NCBI GenBank assembly: GCA_016201765.1
Contig: JACQCE010000117.1
Location: forward strand, 1-34,524
Direction of reading: 5' to 3'
Length of the DNA: 34,524 nt
From: Nitrospirota bacterium
GTDB taxonomy: Bacteria > Nitrospirota > Nitrospiria > JACQCE01
Shown one piece after another: positions 4,883 through 20,805 of this stretch. Each line of letters begins with the position of its first letter. Position 1 is the stretch's first letter. Both the position numbers and the translations under genes were made by a program. The notes below the pieces were generated by a model. That model had not been told where the DNA came from. It searched no databases and saw only the letters and a list, made by a program, of their open reading frames with translations.

Positions 4883-6037
4883 CTACCGACTCGTTTCCCA
4901 TCCCCTCCGTCGCAACAAGCGCGTGGCGAGCCGCACCGCTTGCCATGACAAACGGGCCACGCGGTTCAGATAGCCCCAGGTGAGATCGATCGCCGATGAT
5001 GACCGAACCTGGTCCCGCATCATTTCCGGTTTAGGCGCAAGCGTGTGGCGCAGAAACCGCCACCGGGCCGGCAGGTGCGGAATGGCCAGCAGATAGAGCA
5101 GATCGCCCATGCCGTCGATTCGATGGCCGGCCGTCAGCCATTTCTCCAGGCGGCGCGCCGCCCAGTGCATGGATGGAGCCGGCAGTGGGTCGGATTGAAG
5201 CCGGGGCAATTTGATGACGCAGTGAAGGTAGGCACAGACGAAATAGAGCGGCTGCTCAAGCGACAGTTCCTGCGCCCGCCTTCGCACGTCGTCAAGCCGC
5301 GTCCGGGCATCCAGCCGACCGAGCAACCGGCCGATATCGACGAACCAGATCAACCGGCCGAATGAATGTTTTTGCAGGTGGGCGCTGAGGATGATGATCT
5401 GGTCGATGGGTGACAAGGTCCAGGTTTGCCTTGCGCCGAACGGGCGGCGAACAGCCGAAGCCCAGAGCGTGTCCTCTTCGATCCGAAGCGGGTTGACGGC
5501 GGGTTCAGACCGGGACAGATAGGCCAGTTGCTGGTGCAGGTCGATGCAGACGCCGTCCCGCGCGTAGACCGGAGGATAGCGCGAGACGGGCGTGTAGCCC
5601 AGACGGCTCAGGAGTGTGTGCATTGCCTCGAGCTGGTTTTCCCGAATGAGCAGGTCGATATCACTCAACGGACGAATGCCGGCCGGATAGAGTTCTTCGT
5701 CGATTGCCATGCCCTGAAGGACCATGAGGCGGATTCCCGCCTGTTCAGCGGACTGTAAGAGCTCTTCGAGAGCCTGGCGCTTGATCTGATCGTCGAGCAG
5801 ACGGTGGGTGTGGCGTTTTTTCAGGATTCGCCGCAGATCGGTCTGGATGGCTGCCATCAACCCTTCACGCCTCAACCAGTCAAGGAGAACACCGTCCATG
5901 CCTTCGGCCTCCGCCTGCCTCAGGAGCGCCGGCCAATCGGTGAGCGAATCAGCGAGGGCCTTGCGGTCGGCCTGCCCCCCGGCGTTGCACGCGAGACGGG
6001 CAAGCGAGAGCAACGGTTGTGGATTTGTCACGGACAT
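4883..6037 (-). CDS. NTP_transf_5-type nucleotidyltransferase
   Basis: 384 residues from the ATG at 6037. The open frame continues upstream to 6445, but that part is an Arg/Ser-rich shadow of the opposite gene. The signature is LYPAG-IRPLSDIDLLI (DIDLL at residues 126-130), with VLQGMAIDEE just before. These are features of the uncharacterised nucleotidyltransferase family PF14907. The usual KG before the catalytic strand reads QG here. A DLHQQLAY segment follows, and the C-terminal half is helical and Arg-rich. This family recurs next to HprK-like kinases, PqqD proteins and amidotransferases in RiPP (lasso-type) and EPS loci. That fits the genes on its upstream side. The reaction is unknown; transfer of a nucleotide to a peptide or sugar is plausible. 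Confidence 0.82.
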   Translation of the reverse strand: MSVTNPQPLLSLARLACNAGGQADRKALADSLTDWPALLRQAEAEGMDGVLLDWLRREGLMAAIQTDLRRILKKRHTHRLLDDQIKRQALEELLQSAEQAGIRLMVLQGMAIDEELYPAGIRPLSDIDLLIRENQLEAMHTLLSRLGYTPVSRYPPVYARDGVCIDLHQQLAYLSRSEPAVNPLRIEEDTLWASAVRRPFGARQTWTLSPIDQIIILSAHLQKHSFGRLIWFVDIGRLLGRLDARTRLDDVRRRAQELSLEQPLYFVCAYLHCVIKLPRLQSDPLPAPSMHWAARRLEKWLTAGHRIDGMGDLLYLLAIPHLPARWRFLRHTLAPKPEMMRDQVRSSSAIDLTWGYLNRVARLSWQAVRLATRLLRRRGWETSR

Positions 6038-6056
6038 GATGATTGTTACCTTGATC

Positions 6057-6085
6057 AGGATACTCATCAAGACGACGGATGTCCA
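6057..6085 (-). promoter_or_regulatory. Putative promoter of the nucleotidyltransferase gene
   Basis: Minus strand: TGGACA (6085-6080), 17-nt spacer, TATCCT (6062-6057). The ATG at 6037 lies about 20 nt downstream, with an AAGG ribosome-binding element in between. Predicted by eye and moderately weak. Confidence 0.3.
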
Positions 6086-6095: not shown

Positions 6096-6124
6096 TTGAC
6101 AATGGACCGGATGCGGGATAATAG
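6096..6124 (+). promoter_or_regulatory. Putative promoter of the peptidase/PqqD genes
   Basis: Perfect TTGACA at 6096-6101. The -10 is either GATAAT (6117-6122, 15-nt spacer) or TAATAG (6119-6124, 17-nt spacer). It is divergent from the nucleotidyltransferase promoter. Transcription would start almost at the ATG at 6132, implying a very short leader. Confidence 0.35.
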
Positions 6125-6131
6125 TGAAGCG

Positions 6132-6581
6132 ATGGATCGGTCGCATCGACAGCACTCGATCGCGTTGAGCCGGCGCGCGCTGGAACGGGAAGGGGCGCTC
6201 TGGTTCGAGATCGATGGCGGCAGCATGAAGCCGTTTTTGAGGGCAGGAGATCGCGTATTGGTTCGGTCCTGCTCCGCGGACGCGCTGGCCAGCGGCGATC
6301 TGGTGCTTCTTACCGAGGCGGACACGCTCTGCCTGCATCGTGTCATAAGATCGGGGCGGAGCAACGGTCGACGCTGGCTGAGGACCAAGGGGGATGGATG
6401 CGGGCGATGGGATCTGCCGGTTGAGGCCGGGTCGGTTGTGGGCAAGGGGGTGGCGAGACAACGAGGACACCGGACGGTGCCACTGGACGGCTGGTCGGGT
6501 CGTCTGTTGGGTTTCTTGTGCGTGTACGGTTCCGTTTTAATGGGATGGGGATTGTGGCTGAAATGGCGTTTTCAAGCGTGA
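6132..6581 (+). CDS. S24/S26-family signal-peptidase-like protein
   Basis: 149 residues from the ATG at 6132; in-frame ATGs at 6102 and 6111 lie inside the predicted promoter. The nucleophile motif is GGSMKPFL with Ser31. It is followed by GDRVLV, SGDLVLL, CLHRVI (His69) and RTKGDG (Lys86). This arrangement resembles S26B/SipW-like peptidases, in which Ser pairs with His instead of Lys. The likely membrane segment is C-terminal (about residues 124-145, GFLCVYGSVLMGWGLWL), the reverse of LepB. Known family members cleave signal or leader peptides or process regulators. The neighbouring PqqD gene overlaps its 3' end, suggesting co-translation. A role in cleaving the leader of the 54-residue peptide downstream is possible but speculative. 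Confidence 0.8.
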   Translation: MDRSHRQHSIALSRRALEREGALWFEIDGGSMKPFLRAGDRVLVRSCSADALASGDLVLLTEADTLCLHRVIRSGRSNGRRWLRTKGDGCGRWDLPVEAGSVVGKGVARQRGHRTVPLDGWSGRLLGFLCVYGSVLMGWGLWLKWRFQA

Positions 6582-6850
6582 ACAGAATTCCCATGAAAGC
6601 GGTCCACACCGCTTCGCAAGTCATCGACGGCGAAGCGGTGGTGCTGGATATTCCCGGCAAAACGCTGCGTGGTCTCAATCCGGTCGGCAGCCGGATTTGG
6701 GAATTAGTGGATGGGACGCGCACGCTGACCGAGATTGCTCGTGTGGTGGCCGGTGAATATGCCCGGTCTGAGGAAGAGGTGTTTCAGGATGTGGTTTTTT
6801 TTCTGGACGAATTGGCCGCTCGCCGGGTGATCGAATTTAAGGAGTGTTAG
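6563..6850 (+). CDS. PqqD-like peptide chaperone (RiPP recognition element)
   Basis: 95 residues from the ATG at 6563, overlapping the peptidase gene by 19 nt. GTG 6518, ATG 6545 and ATG 6593 are alternative starts. The PqqD core is clear: DGEAVVLDI, then LNPVGSRIWELVDG, then TLTEIARVVAGEY and a final helix FLDELAARRVIEF. PqqD proteins form a winged-helix RiPP recognition element that binds the leader of a precursor peptide and presents it to a radical SAM or other enzyme. A SPASM radical SAM gene and a short peptide gene with a YxxPxI leader motif lie 5 kb downstream on the same strand, so a physical partnership is likely. The two halves of the system are separated by the riboswitch-controlled secreted-protein genes. 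Confidence 0.9.
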   Translation: MAFSSVNRIPMKAVHTASQVIDGEAVVLDIPGKTLRGLNPVGSRIWELVDGTRTLTEIARVVAGEYARSEEEVFQDVVFFLDELAARRVIEFKEC

Positions 6851-6974: not shown

Positions 6975-7072
6975 AGGAACCGACACCGATAACAGCAAAC
7001 CCCGAGTAATCGGGGGGCGCAAAGCCGCTCACCCCGCCGAAGAGGGACGGGGCAGGAGGGTTGCCGAAGTGG
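6975..7072 (+). promoter_or_regulatory. GEMM-I-type cyclic-dinucleotide riboswitch
   Basis: The leader carries the conserved GEMM-I blocks in order. GCAAACC begins at 6995. A perfect hairpin CCCCGA/TCGGGG (7000-7005/7010-7015) is closed by a GTAA (GNRA) tetraloop. GCAAAGCC is at 7019-7026. A second hairpin built on CCCCGCC/GGACGGGG spans 7032-7052, and GGGTTGCCG is at about 7058-7066. This is the c-di-GMP-I aptamer layout: the GNRA loop docks on the second hairpin and the GCAAAGCC adenine stacks between the ligand bases. The base directly before GCAAACC is A, where the Vibrio Vc2 aptamer has G20. In the GEMM-Ib subclass this change shifts specificity towards 3',3'-cGAMP. The regulated gene is the large secreted protein that follows. 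P1 was not resolved by hand. Confidence 0.82.
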
Positions 7073-7090
7073 ACGGAAGGCACATCACAG

Positions 7091-7125
7091 CCCATTTTCT
7101 CATCAGGAGAATGGGTTATTTTATT
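7091..7125 (+). terminator. Terminator-like hairpin, probable riboswitch expression platform
   Basis: CCCATTTTCT (7091-7100) pairs over 10 positions, with three G-T wobbles, with GGAGAATGGG (7106-7115) around a 5-nt loop. TTATTTTATT follows at 7116-7125. This is an intrinsic-terminator shape directly after the aptamer. The 3' arm also contains the AGGAG and the ATG at 7111, so it could block translation as well as transcription. Confidence 0.6.
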
Positions 7126-10100
7126 ATCGCCGCAACGCGACGCACGCGGTTTTCTATCAGCGCATTACTGCTGGTCGCCGCATTCAGTTGGTTGCTGTGG
7201 CCCCCTCATGAGGCGCAGGCGGCGGTGGCCTATCGAGCGTCAGGCACGTTTACGGCTGGCACCGGCGCGATCACGCCGCCCTATCCGGCCAGCATGGCGG
7301 CGAACGACGTGTGTCTCCTCGTTGTTGAATCGGAAGACCAGTCCATTTCACTCTCCTCGGCGCAGGGCTTTGTTCAAGTGCCGTGGTCGCCGCAGAGCGC
7401 CAATGACGGCAATCCTCCGCCATCAAACCCGTCGTCCCGATTGGCGGTCTACTGGAAGAGAACGGTCGGCGGCGATGCGGCCCCAGCGGTGGCGGATTCC
7501 GGCGACCACACGACAGGTCAGATCCATTGCTTCTCGGGCGTCATCACCTCCGGCAATCCGTGGGACACCGGCGCGGGCGGAAACGATAGTGGAGGGAACG
7601 ACACGACCGGCACCATTGCAGGTTCAACAACGACGGTGGCTAATACCTTGGTGGTCCTTATCACCTCAACGAGCAACAACGGCACGAGCACCGCTCAATG
7701 CTCGGGCTGGACGAATGCGAGTCTCGCCAATCTGACCGAACGGTCCGATAATACCAACACAGTCGGTCTTGGGGGCGGCCACTGTATGGCGACTGGGGAC
7801 AAGGTTGCGGCGGGGGTCTATGCCACGACGACCGTGACGCTGGCGCAGAACTCGCTCAAGGGCGCAATTTCACTGGCGCTCAAGCCGGCGCCGCCCAACC
7901 CGACCCAGATCCATTATCGCTGGCGGAACGACAATGGCGGCGAGTCGCCGCCGCTGAATATCGCCCTGATCTGCGCCACGGCCACCTGCACCGATGTGAA
8001 CATCGATGTGCCCCTGAAGAATCATTTGTCCACGACGCTGGGCTACACGGTGACGACATTCATCGATACCAACACCGCCTGGACGCCGACCAATTACGAT
8101 CTCGTGATCATCTCCGAGTCCACATTGTCCGGAAACACCGCCTGGCTGAAAAATCAGGCCGTGCCCATTCTGACGGTCGAAGGGGCAAACTGGGATGAGT
8201 TTGAATTGGGAACGAGCGGGGACAGCAACATCGGCGGGGATAATGTCATCAATATTACGGATAACTCTCACTATATTACGGCGCCGTTCCCGCTGGGGCC
8301 GTTGACCGTGACCGACCCGGCGACCACCAATCTGACCAATGACCTGGGCTATGTCTCCGGATGGGCGAACGGCGTGACAAAGCTGGCGCATTATAATTCG
8401 GTGCCCGCACGGGCCAAACTGCTGGTTGTGGAGGCCGGCGGTCTGCTGCAAGGCGGCGTGAATACGGCGGCCGAGCGGCGGGTCTTTTTTGCTGCACGAT
8501 ATTTTGCCAGACTGAACGCCAATGGCATCACGATCTTCAACCGTGCGCTGGAGTGGGTCTCCTATGCCGTGGGCGCCGCGACGTTTGCGGCCAACGAAGA
8601 CACGCCGTTGATCGGTCATCCGAAGCTCACGCCCATCCGGGGCAGAATCGAGGTCTCCAACGAGGGCGGAGCCAGCACGGGGGCGCTGACTTACCGGCTC
8701 GAGTATGCCCTGTCGACCGCGGGTCCTTGGACGACCGTGCCGGCATCGGCGACCGCCGAGGACTGGGAAATGGTCGATTCCATCCATTTTGTGGACGGCC
8801 TGGCGACGCAGAACATCGTCCCGGGATTGACGGATGAAAATACGACCTTCGTGGCCGGCCAGCTCAAGGATACCGGTTCGACCACGAGTGCGATCACGCT
8901 GTCATCCACTCAGTTCACTGAAATTGAATATTCGATCCGGGCCACCAACAATTCGACCAATTGCCAGACCTATTATTTCCGCGTGACGAACGCCGGGGCG
9001 ACCACGAATTTTACGTATCCCGTCTATCCGCAGATCACGCTGGCCGGCTCGCCGGCCTGCGTGGCGCCCGTGCCGATCACCAATCTGACGATCACCGCCT
9101 ACAACTCCGAGAACACCATCACCTGGGATAACCCGCCGGCCGACTACACGCAGATTATTGTCTTGGCCAAGACAGCGGACTGCTCATTCAGCGTTGATCC
9201 GACCGGCATCGAGGCGATTGACACCGCCGTCGGCACTGGGGTGGTCATCTTCAACGGCAACCCGGCCGTGGATATGGCCTCCACGTCGGTGACGGTCGGG
9301 GGCGCAACCACCGTCAGTTACACGGCCTCGACCCAGCGGCTCTTGCACAGCGGCCTGATCGACGGGACGATCTATTGTTACAAGGTCTACGCCCGAAACG
9401 GCGATTTGCTTGATGACAACAGCGGCTCGGCCCGGCCGTCAGTGACGGCAAAAGGTACCAATGGCGTGGCACCGAGCGCGGTCTGGAGTTTCAATCTGAT
9501 TTCCACGGCCGGGGCGACACTGGTGCAACCGAGCCTGGACCCCGGCGCATCCATCTATACATCATATGGCAGCGGGACACTGGCATCGATGGGGGCGACC
9601 ACCGGCCTGTTGGGCTGGCGCAATACGCCGGCCTCGGGCGCCATTCAGGATCAATCGGCGGTCGTCTGGATGTCCGGTTCCAGCACCTGCGGTCTGGCCG
9701 GAGCGACCAACTGTATTTTTGCCGCTTCGCAGGACGGCTATCTCTACGCCCGGAATGCCGTGACCGGCGCGGCGGCGTGGAGCTACCGCCATGCCGGGGG
9801 CGACGTGTTGCAGGGCGCGCCGGCCGTGCAAATTAAAGATTACAGCAACGGCGGCTACACCCCGACGGTCGACCGGCTCTTCGCCGTCACCCGCAATGCG
9901 ACGACGAGCGCCAACAAAGTCTATGCGCTGAACCCGACCGTGGCGCCGCCGACGGTGGCCTGGTCGTTTACCGGCGGAGGCGCGAATCCGGCTCTGGATA
10001 TGATCAGCTCGCCGCCGGCGTTGGATTACACGAATAACCGGCTCTATGTAACCAGCAGCTCCAACGGCACGACCCAGCGGAGCCTCTGGGTCTTCGACAC

Positions 10101-10719
10101 CGTGGCGGGCACATTGCTGAGCACCGGGGCGACCTATGGCGGCACCACGCTTGGTGACGTGTTGGTGGCGCCGGCGTTAAACATCACCGGCAGCGTGGTC
10201 TATGTGGGGACGTCGGCCGGCGCGAGCAGCGAGGTGAAGGCCTACAGCACCAGCACCGGCAATCAACTCTGGTCGTTTACCACGTCGAGCCCGGTTGTGT
10301 CGGGCATCTGGGTGGAGTGGCGCGCCGGGTTAGCTGATAACCTGTTCTTTACCACGGCCAACGGGAAAGTCTGGAGGATCAAGGACAATGGGGCGTCCGC
10401 CGCCGATCAATGGGGCGCCGGCGCGCCGACAATTACGTCGGCCTCGTTCCCCGTGGTGATCCCGTCGGCGGGGAAGGTCTATGTGGGCGGCTGCTCCGGC
10501 GCCAGTTGTGCGGCAGCCAGCCTCGGGAAACTCTATCAACTGGCCGTGACCACGGGGACGAAGGAACAATGCCGTAGCCTGGGCACCAACGTGACGGTCG
10601 GTGACCCGGCGTTTGATACCGTGCTCGATCGATTGCTGGCGGGGACCAGCGACGGCAAAGTGCACGAATATGCCGCTCCGGCCGGCCTTCTGGGAGGAGA
10701 TCCGTCATGCACGCCGTGA
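7111..10719 (+). CDS. Large secreted protein with C-terminal PQQ-like beta-propeller
   Basis: About 1202 residues from the ATG at 7111. A Sec signal peptide is seen: an Arg-rich start, hydrophobic ISALLLVAAFSWLLW, then cleavage near AQAA. The N-terminal part is rich in Thr, Ser, Gly and Asn and looks like beta-sandwich modules. An FN3-like segment lies around 9067-9470 (VPITNLTITAYNSENTITWDNP). From about 9475 to the end there are repeated blades of the PQQ-like/WD type (YLYARNAVTGAAAWSY, KVYALNP, VKAYSTSTGNQLWSF, KLYQLAV). Such propellers are often structural, so cofactor binding cannot be assumed. No PEP-CTERM or LPXTG anchor is present. Expression should depend on the riboswitch just upstream. 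GTG 7069, with AGGAGGG 8 nt upstream, is an alternative start lying inside the aptamer's 3' strand. Likely an extracellular or periplasmic adhesin or matrix-type protein. Confidence 0.88.
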   Translation: MGYFIIAATRRTRFSISALLLVAAFSWLLWPPHEAQAAVAYRASGTFTAGTGAITPPYPASMAANDVCLLVVESEDQSISLSSAQGFVQVPWSPQSANDGNPPPSNPSSRLAVYWKRTVGGDAAPAVADSGDHTTGQIHCFSGVITSGNPWDTGAGGNDSGGNDTTGTIAGSTTTVANTLVVLITSTSNNGTSTAQCSGWTNASLANLTERSDNTNTVGLGGGHCMATGDKVAAGVYATTTVTLAQNSLKGAISLALKPAPPNPTQIHYRWRNDNGGESPPLNIALICATATCTDVNIDVPLKNHLSTTLGYTVTTFIDTNTAWTPTNYDLVIISESTLSGNTAWLKNQAVPILTVEGANWDEFELGTSGDSNIGGDNVINITDNSHYITAPFPLGPLTVTDPATTNLTNDLGYVSGWANGVTKLAHYNSVPARAKLLVVEAGGLLQGGVNTAAERRVFFAARYFARLNANGITIFNRALEWVSYAVGAATFAANEDTPLIGHPKLTPIRGRIEVSNEGGASTGALTYRLEYALSTAGPWTTVPASATAEDWEMVDSIHFVDGLATQNIVPGLTDENTTFVAGQLKDTGSTTSAITLSSTQFTEIEYSIRATNNSTNCQTYYFRVTNAGATTNFTYPVYPQITLAGSPACVAPVPITNLTITAYNSENTITWDNPPADYTQIIVLAKTADCSFSVDPTGIEAIDTAVGTGVVIFNGNPAVDMASTSVTVGGATTVSYTASTQRLLHSGLIDGTIYCYKVYARNGDLLDDNSGSARPSVTAKGTNGVAPSAVWSFNLISTAGATLVQPSLDPGASIYTSYGSGTLASMGATTGLLGWRNTPASGAIQDQSAVVWMSGSSTCGLAGATNCIFAASQDGYLYARNAVTGAAAWSYRHAGGDVLQGAPAVQIKDYSNGGYTPTVDRLFAVTRNATTSANKVYALNPTVAPPTVAWSFTGGGANPALDMISSPPALDYTNNRLYVTSSSNGTTQRSLWVFDTVAGTLLSTGATYGGTTLGDVLVAPALNITGSVVYVGTSAGASSEVKAYSTSTGNQLWSFTTSSPVVSGIWVEWRAGLADNLFFTTANGKVWRIKDNGASAADQWGAGAPTITSASFPVVIPSAGKVYVGGCSGASCAAASLGKLYQLAVTTGTKEQCRSLGTNVTVGDPAFDTVLDRLLAGTSDGKVHEYAAPAGLLGGDPSCTP

Positions 10720-11303
10720 AGAAACGGCACACCGCCAATCTGCTGCTGATCGGTCTGTTTGCATCGGCCGCGATGCTCATGCTTCTGCCTGGTTTGGTCC
10801 AGGCTGGCGAGGGGGGATCGGGTCACGGCACCGGTCACCACCCGAAGGTGGAGGCGCGGCTGGCCACGGCCGGCATGGATATGAACGATCTGGTCGGCGG
10901 ACGCAGTTCTAAAAATTTATGGAAAACACTGAAGCCGGGTTCGGCATTTTCCGTGTCGACCGTTCGCGACCTGTTCCTTTACACCTATTGGCGCAGGCTG
11001 TCGGGCGAGCATGTCATGACGCTCATGATTTATGGACCGGATGGCCAGCTCTATCAGCAACGGCTGTTGCCGATCTCAACCGGGACGCCGTCGTCGCCGA
11101 CCCGGTCGGTGCCCGGCATCGAAGGCCTGGTTGAGGTGCAGCAGACCATTTCGTTCGGCGGATACGACGTGTCAATCATTCAACTGCCTGTTGCCGGCAC
11201 CTGGATTACCGAACATCGCCTCCTGGGCTTGTGGCGTGTGGATGTGCACTTGGACGACGCATCGTCGCCCCTGGTCAGCGGGACATTCACCCTCACCGAA
11301 TAG
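10707..11303 (+). CDS. Small secreted protein of unknown function
   Basis: 198 residues. The ATG overlaps the end of the propeller gene by 13 nt and is preceded by a strong GGGAGGAG ribosome binding site, so the two are co-translated. A clear signal peptide (LLLIGLFASAAMLMLLPGL, cleaved near VQA at about residue 33) is followed by a Gly/His-rich stretch GHGTGHHPK that could bind metal. The mature domain looks beta-rich (FLYTYWRRLSG, VMTLMIYGPDGQLYQQRL, TWITEHRLLGLWRVDVHLDD) and ends in SGTFTLTE, resembling the strand pattern of an Ig-like or C2-like sandwich. I do not recognise the family. The shared operon suggests that it works outside the cytoplasm with the large propeller protein, under the same riboswitch. 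Confidence 0.8.
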   Translation: MHAVKKRHTANLLLIGLFASAAMLMLLPGLVQAGEGGSGHGTGHHPKVEARLATAGMDMNDLVGGRSSKNLWKTLKPGSAFSVSTVRDLFLYTYWRRLSGEHVMTLMIYGPDGQLYQQRLLPISTGTPSSPTRSVPGIEGLVEVQQTISFGGYDVSIIQLPVAGTWITEHRLLGLWRVDVHLDDASSPLVSGTFTLTE

Positions 11304-11366: not shown

Positions 11367-11401
11367 GGGGGCTGTTGGTCACATTCTGGGAGGTGACGGC
11401 C

Positions 11402-11566
11402 ATGGCCGATGAACCGGAAGCGGAAAAGAAGCTGCAGCGCCCTCAACCCTATACCAAACCGAAGATTGAGTGGGAAGAGCCGTTTGAACCGGTCACCTCG
11501 GCGATCAGTTGCGCCAAGCGGCCCGGACAGGGCGTCCCCAGCTGCACGGCCGCGCCCCGGCTCTAA
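11402..11566 (+). CDS. Candidate RiPP precursor peptide, 54 residues
   Basis: The ATG at 11402 follows GGGAGGTGA (11388-11396), one of the strongest ribosome binding sites in the window, as expected for an abundant peptide. The N-terminal half is acidic/lysine-rich, then reads YTKPKIEWEEPFEP. Y17, P20 and I22 match the YxxPx(L/I) leader motif recognised by PqqD-like elements in lasso-type systems. The C-terminal half carries Cys37 and Cys48 (SCAKRPGQGVPSC) and ends TAAPRL, a plausible core. The stop lies 11 nt before the HprK-like gene, which runs directly into the radical SAM gene. With the PqqD gene upstream this forms a RiPP-type set. I do not recognise a named peptide family, and the core boundary and modification are unknown. 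An in-frame start at 11375 is less likely given the ribosome binding site. Confidence 0.78.
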   Translation: MADEPEAEKKLQRPQPYTKPKIEWEEPFEPVTSAISCAKRPGQGVPSCTAAPRL

Positions 11567-11577
11567 CACGGAATGGC

Positions 11578-12384
11578 ATGACATCCTCCGTCACGATTGA
11601 GATGGCGGGCATCGCCTGTGCCGTTACGGCGCGGGAACCGGCATTGATGGAGCTGTTGATCCAACGGTACCAGGGCTTTCTTTCGGAGCGGCCGCCTCAT
11701 TTCACGCTGTCGGTGGCGGTTGATCCTTCAGCCGTTGACGGCGATCCGCTGGAGATCAGACCCGTTCCGGTCACGATCAAACGGCGCGACCACCTGATCA
11801 TTCTGGCCGGCGATCAGTGCGCGGCCCAATATGATCTGACATCCCGGACCGGGACGATGACCCTCCCCCTGAACCTGACCCCCCTCGATCTGCTGTTGAA
11901 GACAGTGTATGCCGCATACCTCCTGGATGAGAACGCATTGTTTGTTCACGCCTGCGCCGTTGGTCGACTGCACGGCGGCGATCTCTTCTTCGGCCCTTCA
12001 GGAAGCGGCAAGTCAACGATGGCGGGGCTGGCCGCGGAGGCGGGCGGGGGAGTGCTGGCCGATGAACTGGTGATCATTCGGCAGGCAGGAAGGCACTGTA
12101 CCGTTCACGGCACGCCATTCTGGGACGGCCGTAACGCGTCGGCGGATGTGCGGGGCCTGTTTGCGTTGTCTCCCGACCATCAGTCCGACGCCGTCACGAC
12201 CATGACGCCGCTCCAGGCGCTCCGGCGGCTGCTGCCCTGCATGGGCGATTTCTTTCAGGAGCCCGGTCAACGGGCCCGGTTGTTCGCCCTGACGGGTTCG
12301 CTGGCGCGCTCGACGGTCTGTCAGGAGCTGCGTTTTTCCACCACCGAATCGATGAGAGGATGGCTGGATGCTCGTCTCAGTTGA
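11578..12384 (+). CDS. HprK-like Ser kinase-type P-loop protein
   Basis: 268 residues from the ATG at 11578, 11 nt after the peptide stop. Walker A is GPSGSGKST (residues 139-147), preceded by LFVHACAVG. It is followed by VLADELVII and VHGTPFWDGR, the order seen in the catalytic domain of HPr kinase/phosphorylase relatives. The N-terminal third is a beta-rich domain unlike the HprK regulatory domain. True HprK phosphorylates HPr. Short HprK-like proteins occur in RiPP loci, such as the paeninodin-type kinase that phosphorylates a lasso precursor, and in EPS loci. Placement between precursor and radical SAM gene suggests that it acts on the 54-residue peptide (Ser/Thr present in the core); this is inferred. 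The 3' end overlaps the radical SAM gene by 17 nt. Confidence 0.85.
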   Translation: MTSSVTIEMAGIACAVTAREPALMELLIQRYQGFLSERPPHFTLSVAVDPSAVDGDPLEIRPVPVTIKRRDHLIILAGDQCAAQYDLTSRTGTMTLPLNLTPLDLLLKTVYAAYLLDENALFVHACAVGRLHGGDLFFGPSGSGKSTMAGLAAEAGGGVLADELVIIRQAGRHCTVHGTPFWDGRNASADVRGLFALSPDHQSDAVTTMTPLQALRRLLPCMGDFFQEPGQRARLFALTGSLARSTVCQELRFSTTESMRGWLDARLS

Positions 12385-13564
12385 ATCTGACAGTCATCGA
12401 ACGGGTATGGGAACGGGTATGGGGCTTGCGACGGCGCCCTCCGGCTACGCGCGCTTGGTCCAGCGGGCGGCGAGCGCGTACGTACCCTTGAATGTGCTGG
12501 TGGAACTGACCCATCGCTGTCACCTGGATTGCGTCCATTGCTATCTGGAGGACAATCACGCCCACGGGGCCAAACCCCGTGAGTTGACGCTTGATGAGCT
12601 GTGCAGGCTCATCGATGACCTGGCCGCCGCCGGGTGTCTCTTTCTCACCCTGAGCGGAGGGGAAATCTTCCTCCGACGTGAGACATTGGAAGTGGCTCGC
12701 TATGCCCGCCGGCGAGGCCTGGCAATCAGGTTGTTTACCGCGGGTCTGTTGTTGACGCCCGAGCTGATCTCAGCCATCCGGGCGTTGTACCCGCTGTCCG
12801 TCGAGTTTTCGCTCTATTCCGCCGAGAAGGCCGATCTGCATGATGCCATCACCCGGGCGCCCGGATCACACGGCAAAACCGTCTGGGCGATTCGAGAGCT
12901 GGTCGCCCGGCATGTGCCGGTCGTGATCAAGACCCCCTTGATGCGGGAGGTTTTTCCCGAATATCCCGCCCTTGTCCGGTTGGCCCAGTCCCTTGGAGCG
13001 GCCTATCTGCTTGACCCGACCGTCACGCCGAAAAACGATGGCGACCAGTCCACCTGCGCGCTTCGATTGACCCCGGACCAGTTGACCGCCTTGTATGCCG
13101 ATCCTGCACTTCCAGTGGCGGAGGAAATCCGGACCCTTGTCTCCCGGCAGCGCCCGAGAGACCCCGAAGATGAGGTCTGCAATCTGGGCAAAACGGGCTG
13201 CGCCATTTCACCGTTCGGGGACGTGTATCCGACGCTGGGTTTTCCATGGCCGGCCGGGAACATCAGGGAACAGCCCTTTCGGACGATCTGGCGGGAGGCG
13301 CCCCTGCTGAACAAACTGAGGGCGCTCCGGGTCAAGCATCTTGGCGCCTGTTCCGGCTGCAACAAATTTTCCTACTGCAACCGTTGTTGCATGTGGGCCC
13401 TGATGGACGACGGCGATTTTCTTGGCGGGTCGTCCTGGGCCTGTGACATCGCGGCCGCCAAGGAACGGGCGGCGGGGCTGCCGTCCCATCCCACGCCGCA
13501 TCAGGCGAAGATGCAACAGTCCTCATCTGCGGCGCCCGTGAGCCCGGTTCGCTGCTCGTTCTGA
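12368..13564 (+). CDS. Radical SAM/SPASM peptide-modifying enzyme
   Basis: 398 residues. The ATG at 12368 has GAGAGGA upstream and overlaps the kinase gene. The radical SAM cluster motif is C51-x3-C55-x2-C58 (RCHLDCVHCY), followed by the SGGE motif at 96-99. The C-terminal SPASM region contains CNLGKTGC (271, 278) and CSGCNKFSYCNRCC (328, 331, 337, 340, 341), with Cys359 after it. The usual YPC of SPASM domains reads YPT, so one auxiliary-cluster ligand appears changed or supplied elsewhere. SPASM enzymes such as PqqE and AlbA build C-C, thioether or related bonds in peptides that a PqqD-type protein presents. The likely substrate is the 54-residue peptide encoded two genes upstream. The last 30 residues are polar and probably disordered. 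Confidence 0.92.
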   Translation: MLVSVESDSHRTGMGTGMGLATAPSGYARLVQRAASAYVPLNVLVELTHRCHLDCVHCYLEDNHAHGAKPRELTLDELCRLIDDLAAAGCLFLTLSGGEIFLRRETLEVARYARRRGLAIRLFTAGLLLTPELISAIRALYPLSVEFSLYSAEKADLHDAITRAPGSHGKTVWAIRELVARHVPVVIKTPLMREVFPEYPALVRLAQSLGAAYLLDPTVTPKNDGDQSTCALRLTPDQLTALYADPALPVAEEIRTLVSRQRPRDPEDEVCNLGKTGCAISPFGDVYPTLGFPWPAGNIREQPFRTIWREAPLLNKLRALRVKHLGACSGCNKFSYCNRCCMWALMDDGDFLGGSSWACDIAAAKERAAGLPSHPTPHQAKMQQSSSAAPVSPVRCSF

Positions 13565-13686: not shown

Positions 13687-13760
13687 TTAAGTACGAAGGC
13701 GAGATCATCCAGAGGGATACCGGCATTGTGCGAATCGGGTTCCGATCGACGGAGAGCGTC

Positions 13761-14480
13761 ATGATGATACAGAGACGACAGGCAAAAATGCTGGCCGTTG
13801 GAATGCTGATGATGGGCATCGGAGTCGGCTGTACGATCAAGACGCCGGTGCCGACCGTTCAACCGGAGACGACGGTCCGGGCCAGAGTGATGACCATTAC
13901 GCCGGGGGATGTGTTGGAAGTCGTCGTGCGCCGCGGGGCGGGGGAGGACCGTTTTACCTCCACGGTTCGTGAAAACGGCGTCCTCTCCATGTCGTTTGTC
14001 GATGTCCCGGTCAGGGATTTGACGGCGACCGAGGCGGAGCAAAAGCTGGCGGAGGCGCTGACCCCCTTTGTGAAGGAGCCCCGCGTGCAGGTGCTCTTTA
14101 AACAAAAGGTCATTCTGGACCGCTTTTATGTCTTCGGCGAAGTCACCAAACCCGGGGTCTATTCGCTGGAATCGGGCATGACCATCGCCGATGCCCTTGG
14201 CAAGGCCGATGGCTATACCAAGAACGCCTATCTCCCCAGCGTCCGGATCCTGCGGGGGGGAGGGGAGCGGCCGGAAATTCTGCCGGTGAATGTCGATCAA
14301 ATGCTCCACGTGGGCGACATCGCGCAGAATCTGGTCCTGAAAAACCAGGATATTATTTTCGTGCCCCGGAGCCGGATCGGCGATTGGAACGCCTTCATGG
14401 AGGACCTCAAGCCGACGCTGGATGTGATCGAAAAGATGCTCCAACCGCCCATCCTGTATCAAACGATTCGAAACCACTGA
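13761..14480 (+). CDS. Wza-like polysaccharide export outer-membrane lipoprotein
   Basis: 239 residues from the ATG at 13761, chosen for the GGAG 6 nt upstream; an in-frame GTG at 13728 is less likely. The N-terminus carries a lipoprotein-type signal with MLMMGIGVGC, Cys24 being the probable lipidated residue, though the box (GVGC) is weaker than LxGC. A polysaccharide export domain follows (ITPGDVLEVVV, then NGVLSMSFVDVPVRDLTATEAEQ). A SLBB-type domain comes next (VYVFGEV-like FYVFGEVTKPGVYSLESG, NQDIIFVP). Wza-family proteins form the outer-membrane exit channel for capsule or EPS. At 239 residues it is shorter than E. coli Wza and closer to the size seen in exosortase-type EPS loci. First gene of the EPS operon, 9 nt before the Wzc-type kinase. 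Confidence 0.93.
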   Translation: MMIQRRQAKMLAVGMLMMGIGVGCTIKTPVPTVQPETTVRARVMTITPGDVLEVVVRRGAGEDRFTSTVRENGVLSMSFVDVPVRDLTATEAEQKLAEALTPFVKEPRVQVLFKQKVILDRFYVFGEVTKPGVYSLESGMTIADALGKADGYTKNAYLPSVRILRGGGERPEILPVNVDQMLHVGDIAQNLVLKNQDIIFVPRSRIGDWNAFMEDLKPTLDVIEKMLQPPILYQTIRNH

Positions 14481-14489
14481 GGGGACGCC

Positions 14490-16772
14490 GTGGCCCAATA
14501 TGAGCTGAATCTTCGAGACTACTGGCACGTTGTCAGAAAACAACGGCGGACGGTCCTCTTGATGGTCTTTCTGGTTGCGCTCTCTTCGCTGGCGCTCTCG
14601 GAACTGCTCAGGCCCACGCCGATGTACGAGGCCACGGCCAGCGTGAAATACGACCGTTCCAGCACGCTGGCCGGCTTCTTTGTCGAGACGATGTCCTATT
14701 CCTATACGGATGACGTGGCCAGTCAGACGGAGGTGGTGCGGAGTTACCCCGTGATCGAGGCGGCCGCGAAGGCGGCAGGGTTGATTCCCGCCACCGTCAG
14801 CAGCGATGCGATTCGGAATAATCCCAACCTGCTCAAGATCGTGCTGGACCTGCAGCGACGGGTCAAGGCGGAGCGGGAGGGGAATACCAATATCATCCGG
14901 ATTCGGGTGACCGCGGCCGAGTCCCGGCAAGCCGAGCAACTGGCCAACGGCGTCATGGAAGCCTACCGTGAGGAAAACACCAGGAACCGCAACCGGCAGG
15001 TGGAGGAAGGGAAGGCATTTATCGAAGCCCAGTTGACGGTTGTCAAAGCCCGGCTCGACCAAGCGGAGCAGGGGCTGGAACAGTTCAAAAAGACCGAAGG
15101 GGTGGTGGAAATCAGCGATGAAGCCAAGGCGGCGCTGACCGAACTGACCCGGGCGGAAGCGGAGCTCGAGAAAGTCAGGCGCACGCTCGAGGAGATCGAC
15201 GAACAAGCCGGCCAACTGCAGCGGGGCGACAACCTCGGACACGCGACCGGCTCATCCCGTATTTTCACCGAAGAGGCGGCCGCCCAGGTCTTCATGTTGA
15301 ACACGAAGCTGATGGACCTGCAGCAGGAACGCGACACGCTTCTGATCAGTTATCTGCCCGAACACCCGGCCGTGATCGAACTGAACAATAAGATCCAGGT
15401 GGTTCGGGGCGAAATGATTCGTGAACTGCAGTCCAAGCGGGAGACGTATCAGATCAGGAATGAGCAACTGGCCGCGCGGTTCGCGGAATTGAAGCGGCAA
15501 TATTACAGCGTGCCGGAGAAGGCGCTGCGGTTGGCCCGGCTGGAGCGTGAAGTCAAGGTGAACTCCGACATTTACGCGTTGTTGGAGACCAAACACCAGG
15601 AGGCATTGATCCGCGGGGCCGAAAAAATCGTCGAAGTCACGCAACTTCAACCGGCGTTTGCCAGCCCCCTCCCCGTGAATGTCCCCAACACGCTGCTGAA
15701 CATGTTCATTGGCGCCATTATTGGATGTCTGCTGGGATTGATGATCGGATTTGTTCAGGAATCATTTGACACCTCGCTGGGCACGATCGAGGACGTGGAA
15801 TCGTTTTTGGGGCTGCCGGTCCTGGGGGTCCTGCCGCACGCGGGCGACGATGTCACCAGCCATGCGTCGCAAATGGGCGCCACCGGCTCGACGAAATCCT
15901 CCGTCAGACCATGGTTTGCCGGATGGTTCGGCAGGGGCCGCCAATCGAAATTTGCCGAACGGGCGGGCCGCGGCCGCTCGGCGGCCGATTTGTCGCTGCT
16001 CTATGCGCCGAAATCGGCGCTGGCTGAAAGTTATCGCTCGCTCCGCACCAATGTCCTCTTTACCTCACTGGGCAAACCCCTTCAGGTGGTGCAGCTCACC
16101 AGCGTGGCCATCGGCGAAGGCAAAACGAGCGTGATCGTCAACCTCGCGGTGAGCATGGCCCAGGCCGGCAAGCGGGTGCTGGTGATCGATGCCGATTTGA
16201 GGCGACCGGCGATTCATCAGGTCTTCGGGATCGACAAATCACCCGGTCTGACGGAACTGCTGCTCGGCACCAAGACCGCTCAACAGGTGTGTCGAAGCCT
16301 CCCTGATCTGTTGATGGGCCGCTTCAAGGTGGAAGAGATCATGGCGTTTCCCGGCATCGACAAGCTGAACATCGTGACCAGCGGCTTTCTCCCGCCCAAT
16401 CCCTCCGAATGTTTGAACTCCGCCCGGCTGGATGATCTGATGCGGGAGTTCCGACAGCAATATGACCTGATTTTGATCGACACGCCGCCCATCCTTCCCG
16501 TGGCGGACTCGATCATCCTCGGCCGCAAGGCGGACGGCACGCTGCTGGTCTATGAGGTCGGGGACATTCCGCGCGTCGCGCTGCGTCGCGCCAAACTGGT
16601 GCTGGAGCAGGCGCAGGTGAAGGTGCTGGGCATCGTGCTGAACAACATGCGGGCCGAGATCGCCATGGACCAATATCATTTCGATTATCACTATCCCTAC
16701 TTTGCCGCCGGCACTGCCGCGGAGCCGGTTCACCAGCCTGCACAGGTCAACGGCAGCCCGGCCAGGAAGTAG
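14490..16772 (+). CDS. Wzc-type chain-length determinant/BY-kinase
   Basis: GTG start with GAGGGGA upstream, 760 residues. An N-terminal Wzz domain (YELNLRDYWHVVRKQRRT) with TM1 at about 21-38 is followed by long periplasmic coiled coil (about 150-380, Glu/Arg/Gln heptads) and TM2 at about 401-421. A cytosolic kinase has Walker A SVAIGEGKTS (538-547), Walker A' VLVIDADLRRP (563-573) and Walker B LILIDTPP (660-667). A C-terminal Tyr cluster Y729, Y733, Y735, Y737 is the likely autophosphorylation site. It controls EPS polymer length and couples polymerisation to export through the Wza-like channel. A Gly/Ser/Arg-rich linker of about 50 residues (450-498) separates the Wzz and kinase parts. In many exosortase loci these two parts are separate proteins; here they are fused. 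Confidence 0.95.
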   Translation: MAQYELNLRDYWHVVRKQRRTVLLMVFLVALSSLALSELLRPTPMYEATASVKYDRSSTLAGFFVETMSYSYTDDVASQTEVVRSYPVIEAAAKAAGLIPATVSSDAIRNNPNLLKIVLDLQRRVKAEREGNTNIIRIRVTAAESRQAEQLANGVMEAYREENTRNRNRQVEEGKAFIEAQLTVVKARLDQAEQGLEQFKKTEGVVEISDEAKAALTELTRAEAELEKVRRTLEEIDEQAGQLQRGDNLGHATGSSRIFTEEAAAQVFMLNTKLMDLQQERDTLLISYLPEHPAVIELNNKIQVVRGEMIRELQSKRETYQIRNEQLAARFAELKRQYYSVPEKALRLARLEREVKVNSDIYALLETKHQEALIRGAEKIVEVTQLQPAFASPLPVNVPNTLLNMFIGAIIGCLLGLMIGFVQESFDTSLGTIEDVESFLGLPVLGVLPHAGDDVTSHASQMGATGSTKSSVRPWFAGWFGRGRQSKFAERAGRGRSAADLSLLYAPKSALAESYRSLRTNVLFTSLGKPLQVVQLTSVAIGEGKTSVIVNLAVSMAQAGKRVLVIDADLRRPAIHQVFGIDKSPGLTELLLGTKTAQQVCRSLPDLLMGRFKVEEIMAFPGIDKLNIVTSGFLPPNPSECLNSARLDDLMREFRQQYDLILIDTPPILPVADSIILGRKADGTLLVYEVGDIPRVALRRAKLVLEQAQVKVLGIVLNNMRAEIAMDQYHFDYHYPYFAAGTAAEPVHQPAQVNGSPARK

Positions 16773-16823
16773 CCGGAGGCGATCGACTCCGGCCCCGAAC
16801 CTCATGACACGGAGCGGACGGGC

Positions 16824-18209
16824 ATGCGCACGATAGAGCGGGTCGAACCGCATCACCTCCCGTTTCTCCTGCTCTCCGCGATGGCGCTGGCCGTCGCGTT
16901 TGCCATTGTCCAGATGACCCCGGCCCACGCGGCCATGGCCTTTACACTGGCCGGACTGTGCATCGCGGCGTTACTCTCCACCCCCTTTGCGCTCTATCTG
17001 TTGATCTTTTCCATGCTGCTCTCGCCCGAGCTGGTGATCGGTCAAATGGCCGGGAAAAGCATGATTGATCGCGGGATGACCCTCAGGCTTGACGACATGC
17101 TCCTGCTGGTGATCGGGCTGAGCTGGCTCGTGAAAATGGCCGTGTACAAGGAGCTGGGCGTCGTCTTCAAGACCCCGCTCAATCGTCCGATTCTGTTGTA
17201 TCTTGCGGCCTGCATCGTCTCGACGCTGGTCGGCATCCTCTTCGGACGGGTCAGGCCGGTGACCGGATTGCTCTATACGATGAAATATTTCGAATATTTC
17301 TTCATCTATTTCATGGTGGTCAATCATCTCCAGACGCGCAACGAGGCAAAACGGTACCTGATTGCGGCCCTGATCACCTGTTGCATTGTCAGCCTCTACG
17401 CCATTGCGCAGATTCCGTCTGGCGTGCGGGCCAGCGCGCCGTTCGAAGGGGAAGTCGGCGAGCCCAACACGCTCGGGGGCTATCTGGTGTTGATGTTTTC
17501 GCTGACGGCGGGTCTGTGGTTGTTCGTGAAGGAAACCCGGATCAAATTTATGCTGGGCGTGCTGGGCGTCCTCATGCTGGTGGCGCTGTCGGCGACCCTG
17601 TCGCGCAGCTCCTATCTGGCGCTGGGTGCGACGATGGCGGCGCTCATGATCTTCAGCCGCAGGCGGGCGGTGCTGGTCTTGGGGGTGGCACTCCTCATTT
17701 CATTGAGCCCCTTTATCGTGCCGGAGCGCGTCAAACATCGGGTGGGGGAAACATTCGCCCGGCAGCCGGGGGAGGAACAGGGGCAGGTGCAGATGGGGAG
17801 GGTGATGCTGGACACCTCGACATCGGCGCGGTTGATCAGCTGGAAGACGTCCACACAGGACTGGCTGCGTCACCCCCTGTTCGGGTACGGCGTGACGGGC
17901 TACGGCTTTATCGATGCGCAATACTTCAAGGTGCTGGTGGACACCGGCGCGGTTGGCATGATGGCGTTTGTCTATCTCCTCTATTCCCTTTGGTCAAAGG
18001 TCATGGCGGCCTACCGCACATTGACGGCCTCATGGACCCAGGGGCTGGCGCTCGGGTTTCTGGCCGGCTATATCGGCCTGCTGGTCCATGCCATCGGCGC
18101 CAATACGTTTATCATCGTCCGCATCATGGAACCCTTCTGGTTGATCGTCGGATTGATCGTGGTCATTGTGTCCCACCCCGGGTCCGAAGAGAGAGCGGCG
18201 CCCGCCTGA
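16824..18209 (+). CDS. O-antigen ligase/Wzy-type polymerase membrane protein
   Basis: 461 residues with roughly ten to twelve hydrophobic segments. The Wzy_C/O-antigen-ligase block is seen near the C-terminus: RLISWKTS, WLRHPLFGYGVTGYG, VLVDTGAVGMMAF, then a final pair of membrane helices. The large loop before it (PERVKHRVGETFARQPGEEQGQ) is polar. Members polymerise lipid-linked repeat units or ligate glycans on the periplasmic face of the inner membrane. Between a Wzc-type kinase and a flippase in a Wzx/Wzy-style operon, polymerase is the likelier job. Ligase cannot be excluded, since the two families share the fold. A 6-bp hairpin (CCGGAG/CTCCGG, 16773-16792) lies in the short gap before it, without a T tract. 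Confidence 0.87.
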   Translation: MRTIERVEPHHLPFLLLSAMALAVAFAIVQMTPAHAAMAFTLAGLCIAALLSTPFALYLLIFSMLLSPELVIGQMAGKSMIDRGMTLRLDDMLLLVIGLSWLVKMAVYKELGVVFKTPLNRPILLYLAACIVSTLVGILFGRVRPVTGLLYTMKYFEYFFIYFMVVNHLQTRNEAKRYLIAALITCCIVSLYAIAQIPSGVRASAPFEGEVGEPNTLGGYLVLMFSLTAGLWLFVKETRIKFMLGVLGVLMLVALSATLSRSSYLALGATMAALMIFSRRRAVLVLGVALLISLSPFIVPERVKHRVGETFARQPGEEQGQVQMGRVMLDTSTSARLISWKTSTQDWLRHPLFGYGVTGYGFIDAQYFKVLVDTGAVGMMAFVYLLYSLWSKVMAAYRTLTASWTQGLALGFLAGYIGLLVHAIGANTFIIVRIMEPFWLIVGLIVVIVSHPGSEERAAPA

Positions 18210-18224
18210 GTTCCCGGGGCTGAC

Positions 18225-19754
18225 ATGTCCAACCTCGGCCGCATACTGATTCACAACACGCTCTCCGGGGCCGCGGCTTATCTGGTCGATCTGGTCGTGG
18301 GTCTGCTGCTGGCGCCCTATCTGCTCGCCACGCTGGGCCCCGAACTGTTCGGAGTCTGGATTGTTCTGGTGGTGACGACCAGCTATTTCAGCCTCTTTGA
18401 CCTGGGAGTCAGTCTGGGATTTATCAAGCATCTCGCCGAGGCCGAGACGCTCCGACGAATCACGCGCCGGAATGAAATCGTGGCTACCGGGTGGGTGTTC
18501 TATGCGGGGTTCAGTCTGTTGGTGATCGGCGCCGGGACGGCACTGGGGGGGTGGGTGCTGCAGTTTTTGAAGGTTGATCCGGCGTTTGCGCCGGTCTACT
18601 GGGGAATCCTGTCCGTCTTCGGCATCCGAAACAGTTGCGTGGTGTACCGATCGGTGCTCTTTGCGCGGCAACGGCTTGATGTGCTCAACGCCATCGCCAT
18701 CGCGGCCGCATTGCTCAACGCCGCTGCCACGGTGGCGGTGCTGGCCCTGGGGTATGGGTTGTCCGGGCTGGTGGTGGTCAGCATCGGGGTGGCGCTGTTC
18801 CATGTGGCGTCGGAAATCGTCATGGCCTATCGCTGTTGCGACAGACTGCAGCTCCGACCGTTCAACGCGTCCCTGTCGACGTTCCGGACCCTGTATCACT
18901 ACGGGATCAGGGTGCAGGCCAGCCGGCTCGCCGATCTGGTCTATCTGCACGTCGACAAGCTGCTCCTCAGCCATTTTGTCGGATTCGGATCGGTGACCTT
19001 TTACGAGCTGGGAGCAAAAGTCGCCGGCGTGACGCGCACGTTTCCCGCCGTGTTGCTGCAGGGCTTGCTGCCCGCGGCGGCGGAGCTGGAAGCGCAGCGC
19101 AATCGGGAACGCCTGCTGCGCCTCTACCTGAAAAGCTCCCGGTATCTGGCGGCGCTGGCTTTTCCCGTGGCGGCCTTTTCGATCGTGGAAGCCGATGACG
19201 TGATGCGCCTCTGGCTGGGGGCGGGGGAGCATGCCGGAGCCGCGCTGGCGCTGCGGGCGCTCACCGTGGCCTATCTGTTTCATTTGCTGATGGAGGCGGC
19301 CATGGCGGTCGCCCGCGGGATCGGCGTGGTGCAGTATGAAATGCGGGCGTTGCTGACGGCCGCGACGCTCAATCTCGTCTTGAGCGCCCTGCTCATCATC
19401 CGGTACGGTTTGACGGGGGTGTTGATCGGCACCGCCGTCTCGATGGCGGTCGGCTACGGGTTGTTCATGTGGTCGTTCCATCGGTACGTGGCGTTGCCGT
19501 TTGTCAGACTGATCAAGGAGGTCTATCTGGTCCCCCTGGCCGGCGTGGCCGTCGCATCGGCCGTCATTGCCGCGGCCGGTTTGTTCGAAGTGGTCGGGAT
19601 GTCATCCGCGGCCTCGCGGATGAACGTGTTGATGGTTCTTGGATTTCACGGAATGTTGTTTGTCCTGATCTATGGTGCGATGGTCTGGAAGGGGGGATAT
19701 ATCGCCATGAGCGATGTCCATCTGCTGCGTCGAACGGTGTTGTCGTCTTCATGA
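18225..19754 (+). CDS. Wzx-type oligosaccharide flippase
   Basis: 509 residues with about 12 to 14 hydrophobic helices spread over the whole length. It opens with GRILIHNTLSGAAAYLVDLVVGLLLAPYLLATLGPELFG and LFDLGVSLGFIKHLAE. That is the usual N-terminal pair of the MOP/polysaccharide_synt flippase family, including the conserved Asp-Leu-Gly segment. ADLVYLHVDKLLLSHFVGF and VTFYELGAKVAG follow around the middle, another family hallmark. It would move undecaprenyl-linked repeat units across the inner membrane for the polymerase encoded just upstream. The ATG lies 15 nt after the polymerase stop. No unusual composition or interruption is seen. Confidence 0.92.
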   Translation: MSNLGRILIHNTLSGAAAYLVDLVVGLLLAPYLLATLGPELFGVWIVLVVTTSYFSLFDLGVSLGFIKHLAEAETLRRITRRNEIVATGWVFYAGFSLLVIGAGTALGGWVLQFLKVDPAFAPVYWGILSVFGIRNSCVVYRSVLFARQRLDVLNAIAIAAALLNAAATVAVLALGYGLSGLVVVSIGVALFHVASEIVMAYRCCDRLQLRPFNASLSTFRTLYHYGIRVQASRLADLVYLHVDKLLLSHFVGFGSVTFYELGAKVAGVTRTFPAVLLQGLLPAAAELEAQRNRERLLRLYLKSSRYLAALAFPVAAFSIVEADDVMRLWLGAGEHAGAALALRALTVAYLFHLLMEAAMAVARGIGVVQYEMRALLTAATLNLVLSALLIIRYGLTGVLIGTAVSMAVGYGLFMWSFHRYVALPFVRLIKEVYLVPLAGVAVASAVIAAAGLFEVVGMSSAASRMNVLMVLGFHGMLFVLIYGAMVWKGGYIAMSDVHLLRRTVLSSS

Positions 19755-19782
19755 GCGGGTGCAGAGCACCGACGGAGCAACC

Positions 19783-20805
19783 ATGAGGATGCTGCTCAGC
19801 GGGTATCACAATCCTCATTTTGAAACGCTGACGGAATATACGGAGGCGGCCATCACGGAACTGGGCGTGCATCTGACCGTGTTTGATGACCGGGATTTTC
19901 TGTTGCCGGGGACGGTCAGAACACTGTGTGGACCGCTTCAACGGTGGGATGCGGCGCGCCTCAATCGCCGGTTGGTAGCGCTGGCCTCCGCGCACCGGCC
20001 CGACGTCTGTCTGGTTCAGGGAGGACATCGCATCAGTGCGGTGAGTGTCGAGGCGATGAAACGCATGGGAATCGTGACGGTCCTGTGGACCATTGACGCC
20101 CCCGGCTCGTCCGGTCTGCCGTTCGATACGGCCCGGCTCTATGACGTCGTCTGCTGCGGCGGGACCGAAGCCGTCGAATTGTTTGCGGCGGCGGGGATGC
20201 CCCACGCGCAATGGCTGCCGTTTGCCTGCGCCCCCGGACGGCACGCGACCACGGTGTTGAACGACGACGAGAAGCACACGTATGCCAGCGACGTCTGTTT
20301 CGTCGGCTCCTATTATCCCAATCGCGCCCGCTGGCTCGAACCGCTGGCGGACATGAATCTCGTGATTCGAGGCCCGGGATGGGGACAGCTGGACGGCCGG
20401 TCAGCATTGAAAGGGGTGGCGCGCGATGAGCAGGTCGTCCCGTCCGAGTGGCTGAAGCTCTACGCCGCAGCGAAGATTATTCTGGCCATTCACTATCAGG
20501 ACGGGGTGTCGCCGTGCCACCAGGCCAGCCCGAAGGTCTTCGAGGCGATGGCCTGCGGGGGATTCCTGCTCAGCGATGACCAGCGCGACGTGACCACGCT
20601 GTTCAAGGAGGGAGAACATCTGGCCGTGTTTCGTAACGCGCACGATCTGCGCGGCAAGATCGCGTATTATCTGTCCCGTTCCGATGAACGGGCGCGGATC
20701 GCCGGACAGGGCCATCGCGAGGCCATCACCAACCATACCTATGTGCGCCGGATGGAACGGCTGCTCTCCATGGTTCGCACGGTTCAGACGAGGGGACGGG
20801 GATGA
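19783..20805 (+). CDS. CgeB-like glycosyltransferase
   Basis: 340 residues from the ATG at 19783, chosen for the GGAG 6 nt upstream; the open frame reaches back to 19714 inside the flippase gene. It begins MRMLLSGYHNPHFETLTEY, then VLWTIDAPGSS and VCCGGTEAVELFAAAGM. SDVCFVGSYYPNR and SPKVFEAMACGGFLLSDDQRDVTTLFKEGEHLAVF follow. The last block is typical of the Glyco_trans_1_2 (CgeB) GT-B family, with the Glu of the nucleotide-sugar site in KVFEAMACGG. It probably transfers a sugar in the cytosol onto the growing lipid-linked EPS unit. Its stop overlaps the next gene in an ATGA arrangement. Donor and acceptor cannot be told from sequence. Confidence 0.88.
   Translation: MRMLLSGYHNPHFETLTEYTEAAITELGVHLTVFDDRDFLLPGTVRTLCGPLQRWDAARLNRRLVALASAHRPDVCLVQGGHRISAVSVEAMKRMGIVTVLWTIDAPGSSGLPFDTARLYDVVCCGGTEAVELFAAAGMPHAQWLPFACAPGRHATTVLNDDEKHTYASDVCFVGSYYPNRARWLEPLADMNLVIRGPGWGQLDGRSALKGVARDEQVVPSEWLKLYAAAKIILAIHYQDGVSPCHQASPKVFEAMACGGFLLSDDQRDVTTLFKEGEHLAVFRNAHDLRGKIAYYLSRSDERARIAGQGHREAITNHTYVRRMERLLSMVRTVQTRGRG

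Follow-up and report, generated by a model that had tools for sequence, protein, structure and literature searches.

What would a locus make that places the genes of an HprK-like kinase and a radical SAM/SPASM enzyme (rSAM) behind the reading frame of a 54-residue, cysteine-containing peptide? We examined this for a stretch of 34,524 nucleotides from a Nitrospirota bacterium (here called the window), for which a sequence-only reading had proposed a compact unit of these three genes. Our preferred explanation, with a probability of roughly 0.7, is that the window contains a divergent copy of an rSAM RiPP maturation cassette of a widespread and apparently undescribed kind, fitted with the kinase/transferase module of lasso peptides. 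The cassette has six parts, not three: precursor, PqqD-type RRE, SPASM rSAM, HprK kinase, S24/S26 peptidase and NTP_transf_5. Hence the observation that was first made is partly confirmed and its interpretation partly supported: peptide, kinase and rSAM stand, the peptidase had been omitted, and the unit also includes the genes for PqqD and NTP_transf_5, located 5-6 kb upstream. The suggestion of a new product class does not hold in that form, as the locus is not isolated: it is a divergent representative of a kind that is widespread and lacks a library model.

Features of the window used in this analysis:
4883-6067, minus strand: NTP_transf_5 nucleotidyltransferase-like gene, divergently oriented, start uncertain (Pfam 1e-40)
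6111-6581, plus strand: S24/S26-type peptidase, candidate leader peptidase, start at 6111 or 6132; overlaps the PqqD gene
6518-6850, plus strand: PqqD-type RRE, start at 6518, 6545 or 6563 (Pfam PqqD 2.5e-15)
7069-10719: exported PQQ-type beta-propeller protein, 1216 aa, between PqqD and precursor
10707-11303: secreted protein, 198 aa, between PqqD and precursor
11388-11396, plus strand: Shine-Dalgarno sequence GGGAGGTGA, rated strong from the sequence
11402-11566, plus strand: precursor peptide, 54 aa, MADEPEAEKKLQRPQPYTKPKIEWEEPFEPVTSAISCAKRPGQGVPSCTAAPRL (HMM of relatives without the window, shuffles, alignment)
11450-11467, plus strand: leader motif Y17-TKP-K-I22, a predicted YxxPxI-type RRE-binding motif
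11510-11563, plus strand: predicted core CAKRPGQGVPSCTAAPRL with C37 and C48; last residue Leu (Ser in relatives)
11578-12384, plus strand: HprK-like kinase, 268 aa (fold, motifs, weak NCBIfam match)
12368-13564, plus strand: radical SAM/SPASM enzyme, 398 aa (Pfam, Cys columns, Foldseek)

The precursor peptide

The peptide frame is real and its homology exceeds chance. An HMM trained on relatives' peptides, with the window excluded, ranks the ORF first among the 709 six-frame ORFs of the window (E 8.9e-7, next best 0.55); this value is somewhat optimistic, since the nine peptides behind the model were picked after the window had been seen. The precursor reaches 24.7 bits, the top of 5,000 composition-matched shuffles 10.3, and a profile of the wider family again puts it first (E 0.0044). 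Judged from these comparisons, the ORF is a RiPP-like precursor homologous to the peptides of related loci. The window peptide as sole query returned only noise from 396 genomes of the phylum, and homology was therefore approached via the enzymes. Searches of 12 locus genomes and 297 Acidobacteriota genomes yielded additional homologous peptides, for the most part adjacent to HprK. For its own genome (1.96 Mb, 86% complete) the precursor is the sole match to profile A2, which includes the window peptide; neither of two profiles revealed a second precursor, and no further plausible small ORF was seen around the cassette. Pfam and NCBIfam models gave zero matches for the precursors tested, both of the window/FE type and of the three-rSAM type.

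The peptide can be partitioned into a leader (about residues 1-36) and a core of 18 residues (about C37-L54), the core length also seen in most Acidobacteriota relatives. RREs recognise leader motifs of the form W/Y/LxxP/L/I (PMC12710340), and the YxxPxI motif noticed earlier in the leader is indeed of this YxxP type; a short precursor with an RRE motif is thus co-conserved with an RRE protein, as in RiPPs with a PqqD-type RRE. Invariant in the close set (alignment A2) are Y17, P20, F28, E29, A34, C37 and C48. Four of the five residues singled out beforehand are among them; the fifth, I22, is merely hydrophobic (I/V/F/W/M) among close relatives. Regarding expression, the strong ribosome binding site is borne out by the Shine-Dalgarno sequence, but the promoter that the sequence-only reading gave to the peptide is not: a sigma-70 scan found none upstream of the precursor, and by eye there is only TTGCGG-N17-TATAGT, with 3/6 and 5/6 matches.

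The kinase and the radical SAM enzyme

Gene coordinates agree with those first read: the kinase ATG (11578) follows the precursor stop by 11 nt, and the rSAM ATG (12368) lies inside the kinase gene, giving an overlap of 17 nt. The AF2 model of the kinase (pLDDT 93.2) retrieves ATP-PEPCK (4e-9) and HprK/P (1e-5) with Foldseek; its sequence has no match in the PDB, and NCBIfam HprK_rel_A stays under its cut-off (3.8e-5). Retained are H124, the P-loop from G139 to K145 (G139, G144, K145), D162 and the GTP motif, and E163 takes the position of the lasso-kinase Asp, as Glu does in many relatives. Fold, P-loop and catalytic His and Asp are those of an HprK/PEPCK-fold kinase. As a query it yields weak matches in 65 of the 396 phylum genomes.

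The rSAM is recognised by Pfam (Radical_SAM 1.6e-16, SPASM 5.8e-7) and combines its SPASM domain with a CX3CX2C motif (C51/C55/C58); the nearest structures found with Foldseek are PqqE, SkfB and the sactipeptide maturase 5why. No NCBIfam rSAM equivalog reached its cut-off for this enzyme, and none of the rSAM or kinase models did. The SPASM cysteines are C271, C328, C331, C337, C340 and C359. This set is incomplete: Thr289 (codon 13232-13234) stands where 35/35 relatives carry the cysteine of the SPASM GX4C motif. A sequencing slip does not account for it, as the codon ACG is at least two (two or three) base changes away from a Cys codon.

Upstream members and gene layout

The S24/S26-type peptidase was found with an HMM of the relatives' peptidases (E 8.3e-21) and also passes Pfam Peptidase_S24 (29.7 bits vs a cut-off of 23.3). 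It keeps the Ser-His-Asp positions (GGSMKP, LHRV, KGD) that characterise S24/S26 peptidases. Related clusters have such a peptidase adjoining the precursor. Here the PqqD-type RRE sits 4.6 kb upstream of the precursor, and two unrelated genes (7069-11303) part it and the peptidase from the precursor, so that the operon is broken up. Neither of the two (7069-10719 and 10707-11303) has homologues in the related loci, and they are not counted as cassette. The NTP_transf_5 gene is likely the counterpart of the lasso-cluster nucleotidyltransferases PsmN/BsfN. No dedicated exporter was recognised for the cassette.

Directly after the cassette lies a polysaccharide cluster (13728-31566) with Poly_export, chain-length/tyrosine-kinase type, Wzy, flippase and glycosyltransferase genes and an asparagine synthase-like gene (28442-30346).

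Related loci and phylogeny

Related loci were selected by rSAM or HprK. Among the 42 with both, PqqD is present in 40, S24 in 35 (33 separate genes and two fused to NTP_transf_5) and NTP_transf_5 in 26; these counts are minima, because locus flanks are often incomplete. The anticipated co-conservation of the peptide with HprK, rSAM/SPASM and PqqD is seen across phyla: a scan based on the rSAM alignment located HprK-PqqD-rSAM sets in named genomes of Acidobacteriota, Omnitrophota, Elusimicrobiota, Planctomycetota, Chloroflexota, Verrucomicrobiota, Bdellovibrionota, Myxococcota and others, many of them adjoined by precursor-like ORFs. Overall, the cassette occurs in other Nitrospirota and in at least eight bacterial phyla outside them. 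Neighbourhoods of the best HprK matches within the phylum contain PqqD, rSAMs and NTP_transf_5, as well as small ORFs whose leader has a Y..P motif. The window type itself was met in only three other genomes of the Nitrospirota sample and in none of the same class.

In both trees the window belongs to the single-rSAM group, whose members carry FE-type peptides, and stands apart from the three-rSAM group. For the rSAM it falls inside a clade of 21 rows (100/99) containing every FE-type member, and the HprK tree splits a set of the same kind from the other group (98/98). The inner order has no resolution, the FE-type rows do not make up a single clade, and the window sits on a long branch.

The wide distribution also bears on the idea that the HprK-like kinase and NTP_transf_5 serve the assembly of the neighbouring exopolysaccharide or glycan, with a RiPP unit of peptide, PqqD and rSAM only. 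Polysaccharide export, chain-length, Wzy-type and glycosyltransferase genes do start directly at 13728. Given that the kinase adjoins peptide, PqqD and rSAM amid quite different surroundings in Acidobacteriota, Elusimicrobiota, Omnitrophota and others, and that kinase and peptide are linked by the C-terminal serine pattern described below, we regard such a role as very improbable.

Several loci deserve separate mention. The fusions of S24 to NTP_transf_5 (L090:3892-5973 and L098:9096-10706) tie two functions together. Locus L061 shows two adjoining HprK/rSAM sets in one genome with very different precursors (1366-1545 and 4547-4762), one of which has a (GGGGQ)n core with a single Cys. Tandem duplicate precursors with differing cores are present in three Nitrospirota three-rSAM cassettes (L063, L069, L079). 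For the Acidobacteriota precursors of L170 and L180 the leader is kept and the core frame apparently lost; these are possibly pseudogenes.

The C-terminal serine and its absence in the window

Lasso kinases (PadeK, ThcoK, SyanK) phosphorylate the C-terminal Ser of their precursor, and PsmN places a hexose on the lasso-peptide phosphate (PMC9266682; PMC8498205). BsfK differs: its precursor ends in Asp, its target is the internal core Ser3, and it is stimulated by the RRE (PMC10368454). Among 50 family peptides, which include the window peptide and several close copies, the last residue is Ser in 43 and Thr in 3, against a Ser background of 6.8% among the remaining ORFs of these loci. This pattern links kinase and peptide. 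Since the cores are very different in length and sequence, mere descent is an unlikely cause of the common last residue, as far as can be judged from a set in which clusters without HprK are absent as a control. One Elusimicrobium cassette (L106) has a Ser-ended precursor with no HprK gene seen within the stretch examined, showing that the C-terminal Ser does not depend strictly on a neighbouring kinase.

The window peptide ends in PRL, with Leu54 in place of the Ser that lasso kinases target. The suggestion of the sequence-only reading that the kinase acts on this peptide is consequently unsupported as written, and phosphorylation is a weaker claim here than in the relatives. As the core has the same 18 residues as most Acidobacteriota cores, Leu54 looks like a substitution, not a truncation.

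Together with the missing SPASM cysteine, the loss of the C-terminal Ser means that the window copy may be altered or decaying. A decaying or reassigned cassette would have lost its phosphate acceptor and an auxiliary-cluster ligand, and its product would not be made as in the relatives, or one step only would be left. Leu54 for Ser at equal core length, Thr289 for the Cys of 35/35 relatives, the long HprK branch (2.14) and the scattered gene order all fit such a history. Every frame is intact nonetheless and the Shine-Dalgarno sequence good; H/K/D are retained in the kinase, Ser/His/Asp in the peptidase and CX3CX2C in the rSAM; two or three base changes separate ACG from a Cys codon; and apparent frame loss is found in two relatives (L170, L180), not in the window. 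On balance, decay or reassignment seems rather unlikely.

Comparison with known systems

The following are shared with phosphorylated or phosphoglycosylated lasso peptides (paeninodin with PadeK, pseudomycoidin with PsmK/PsmN, Bradymonas with BsfK/BsfN): a YxxPx[LI] leader, a discrete RRE, an HprK-fold kinase with H/K/D, a nucleotidyltransferase-like partner and, in the window's relatives, the C-terminal Ser. In contrast to those systems, the cassette has an rSAM/SPASM enzyme for the B2 protease and C cyclase, an S24/S26 peptidase and a Cys-bearing core, and the window peptide ends in Leu. It could be argued that this is a lasso-peptide cluster after all, with protease and cyclase elsewhere in the genome, since lasso clusters are known to feature the YxxPxI leader motif, a discrete RRE, an HprK-type kinase and a nucleotidyltransferase. 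Yet no B2-type protease was found among the ORFs scanned, the sole Asn_synthase gene (28442-30346) lies 15 kb off among glycosyltransferases and has a glutamine amidotransferase domain, and in relatives (loci selected by rSAM or HprK) the kinase is accompanied by an rSAM; a displaced lasso cluster is hardly credible. Lasso-peptide membership was rejected in view of the lack of B2 protease or C cyclase domains near the precursor, as the sequence-only reading had noted.

With the rSAM/SPASM RiPPs that use an RRE (sactipeptides, ranthipeptides, PQQ, mycofactocin) the cassette shares a SPASM rSAM, an RRE and a short precursor, whereas kinase, transferase and S24/S26 peptidase are additional. The SynChlorMet cassette (ScmC, PqqD-like, ScmE, ScmF) unites PqqD and two SPASM rSAMs with an HprK-like protein, and no precursor is known to have been assigned to it. 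The window has one rSAM, not two, and scores 14 vs 125 bits for ScmC and 64 and 78 vs 400 for ScmE and ScmF. SynChlorMet membership was rejected, the cut-offs of these models not being reached. The Nitrospirota three-rSAM cassettes (L063, L065-L075, L077-L079) have PqqD, HprK, NTP_transf_5, S24, a Y..P leader and a C-terminal Ser in common with the window kind, but possess three rSAMs and EQAILSACSL-type precursors, and group apart in both trees. The open-access papers searched gave no account of an rSAM-HprK-S24 cassette, which is weak evidence of absence from the literature. The parts are all of known kinds; what looks new is how they are combined, and the occurrence of the C-terminal rule outside lasso peptides.

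Proposed maturation and significance

Judging from the protein families, the PqqD-type RRE would capture the precursor via YTKPKI, and the SPASM rSAM would alter the core at C37 and C48 or close to them, most likely by forming a thioether or another Cys-centred cross-link (a class that the sequence does not fix). The HprK-fold kinase would phosphorylate a Ser or Thr of the precursor, and NTP_transf_5 might add a sugar or nucleotide to the phosphate, as happens with phosphoglycosylated lasso peptides. The S24/S26-type peptidase probably cuts off the leader close to the conserved A-[LI]-x-C. The predicted phosphate acceptor in relatives is the C-terminal Ser. Given that Leu54 occupies this position in the window, the kinase would either use another hydroxyl (candidates are T32, S33, S36, S47 and T49, with the core Ser3 of BsfK as a precedent) or be inactive on the window peptide.

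A broader proposal can be put forward tentatively, and we rate it as more doubtful than probable: a RiPP class across many phyla in which SPASM rSAMs cross-link a Cys-bearing core, HprK and NTP_transf_5 equip the C-terminal Ser with a phosphate-linked sugar or nucleotide and the S24/S26 peptidase releases the peptide, the window copy having a shifted phosphorylation site and an altered auxiliary Fe-S cluster.

Summarizing, the cassette unites rSAM peptide maturases with the kinase/transferase tailoring module of lasso peptides, two fields that tend to be considered separately. The analysis supplies candidate precursors and a candidate leader peptidase for cassettes whose peptides are covered by no Pfam or NCBIfam model. 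With the C-terminal Ser rule, the kinase target becomes predictable over dozens of uncharacterised clusters, and the window copy, which breaks both this rule and that of the SPASM cysteines, offers a natural experiment on the role of each.
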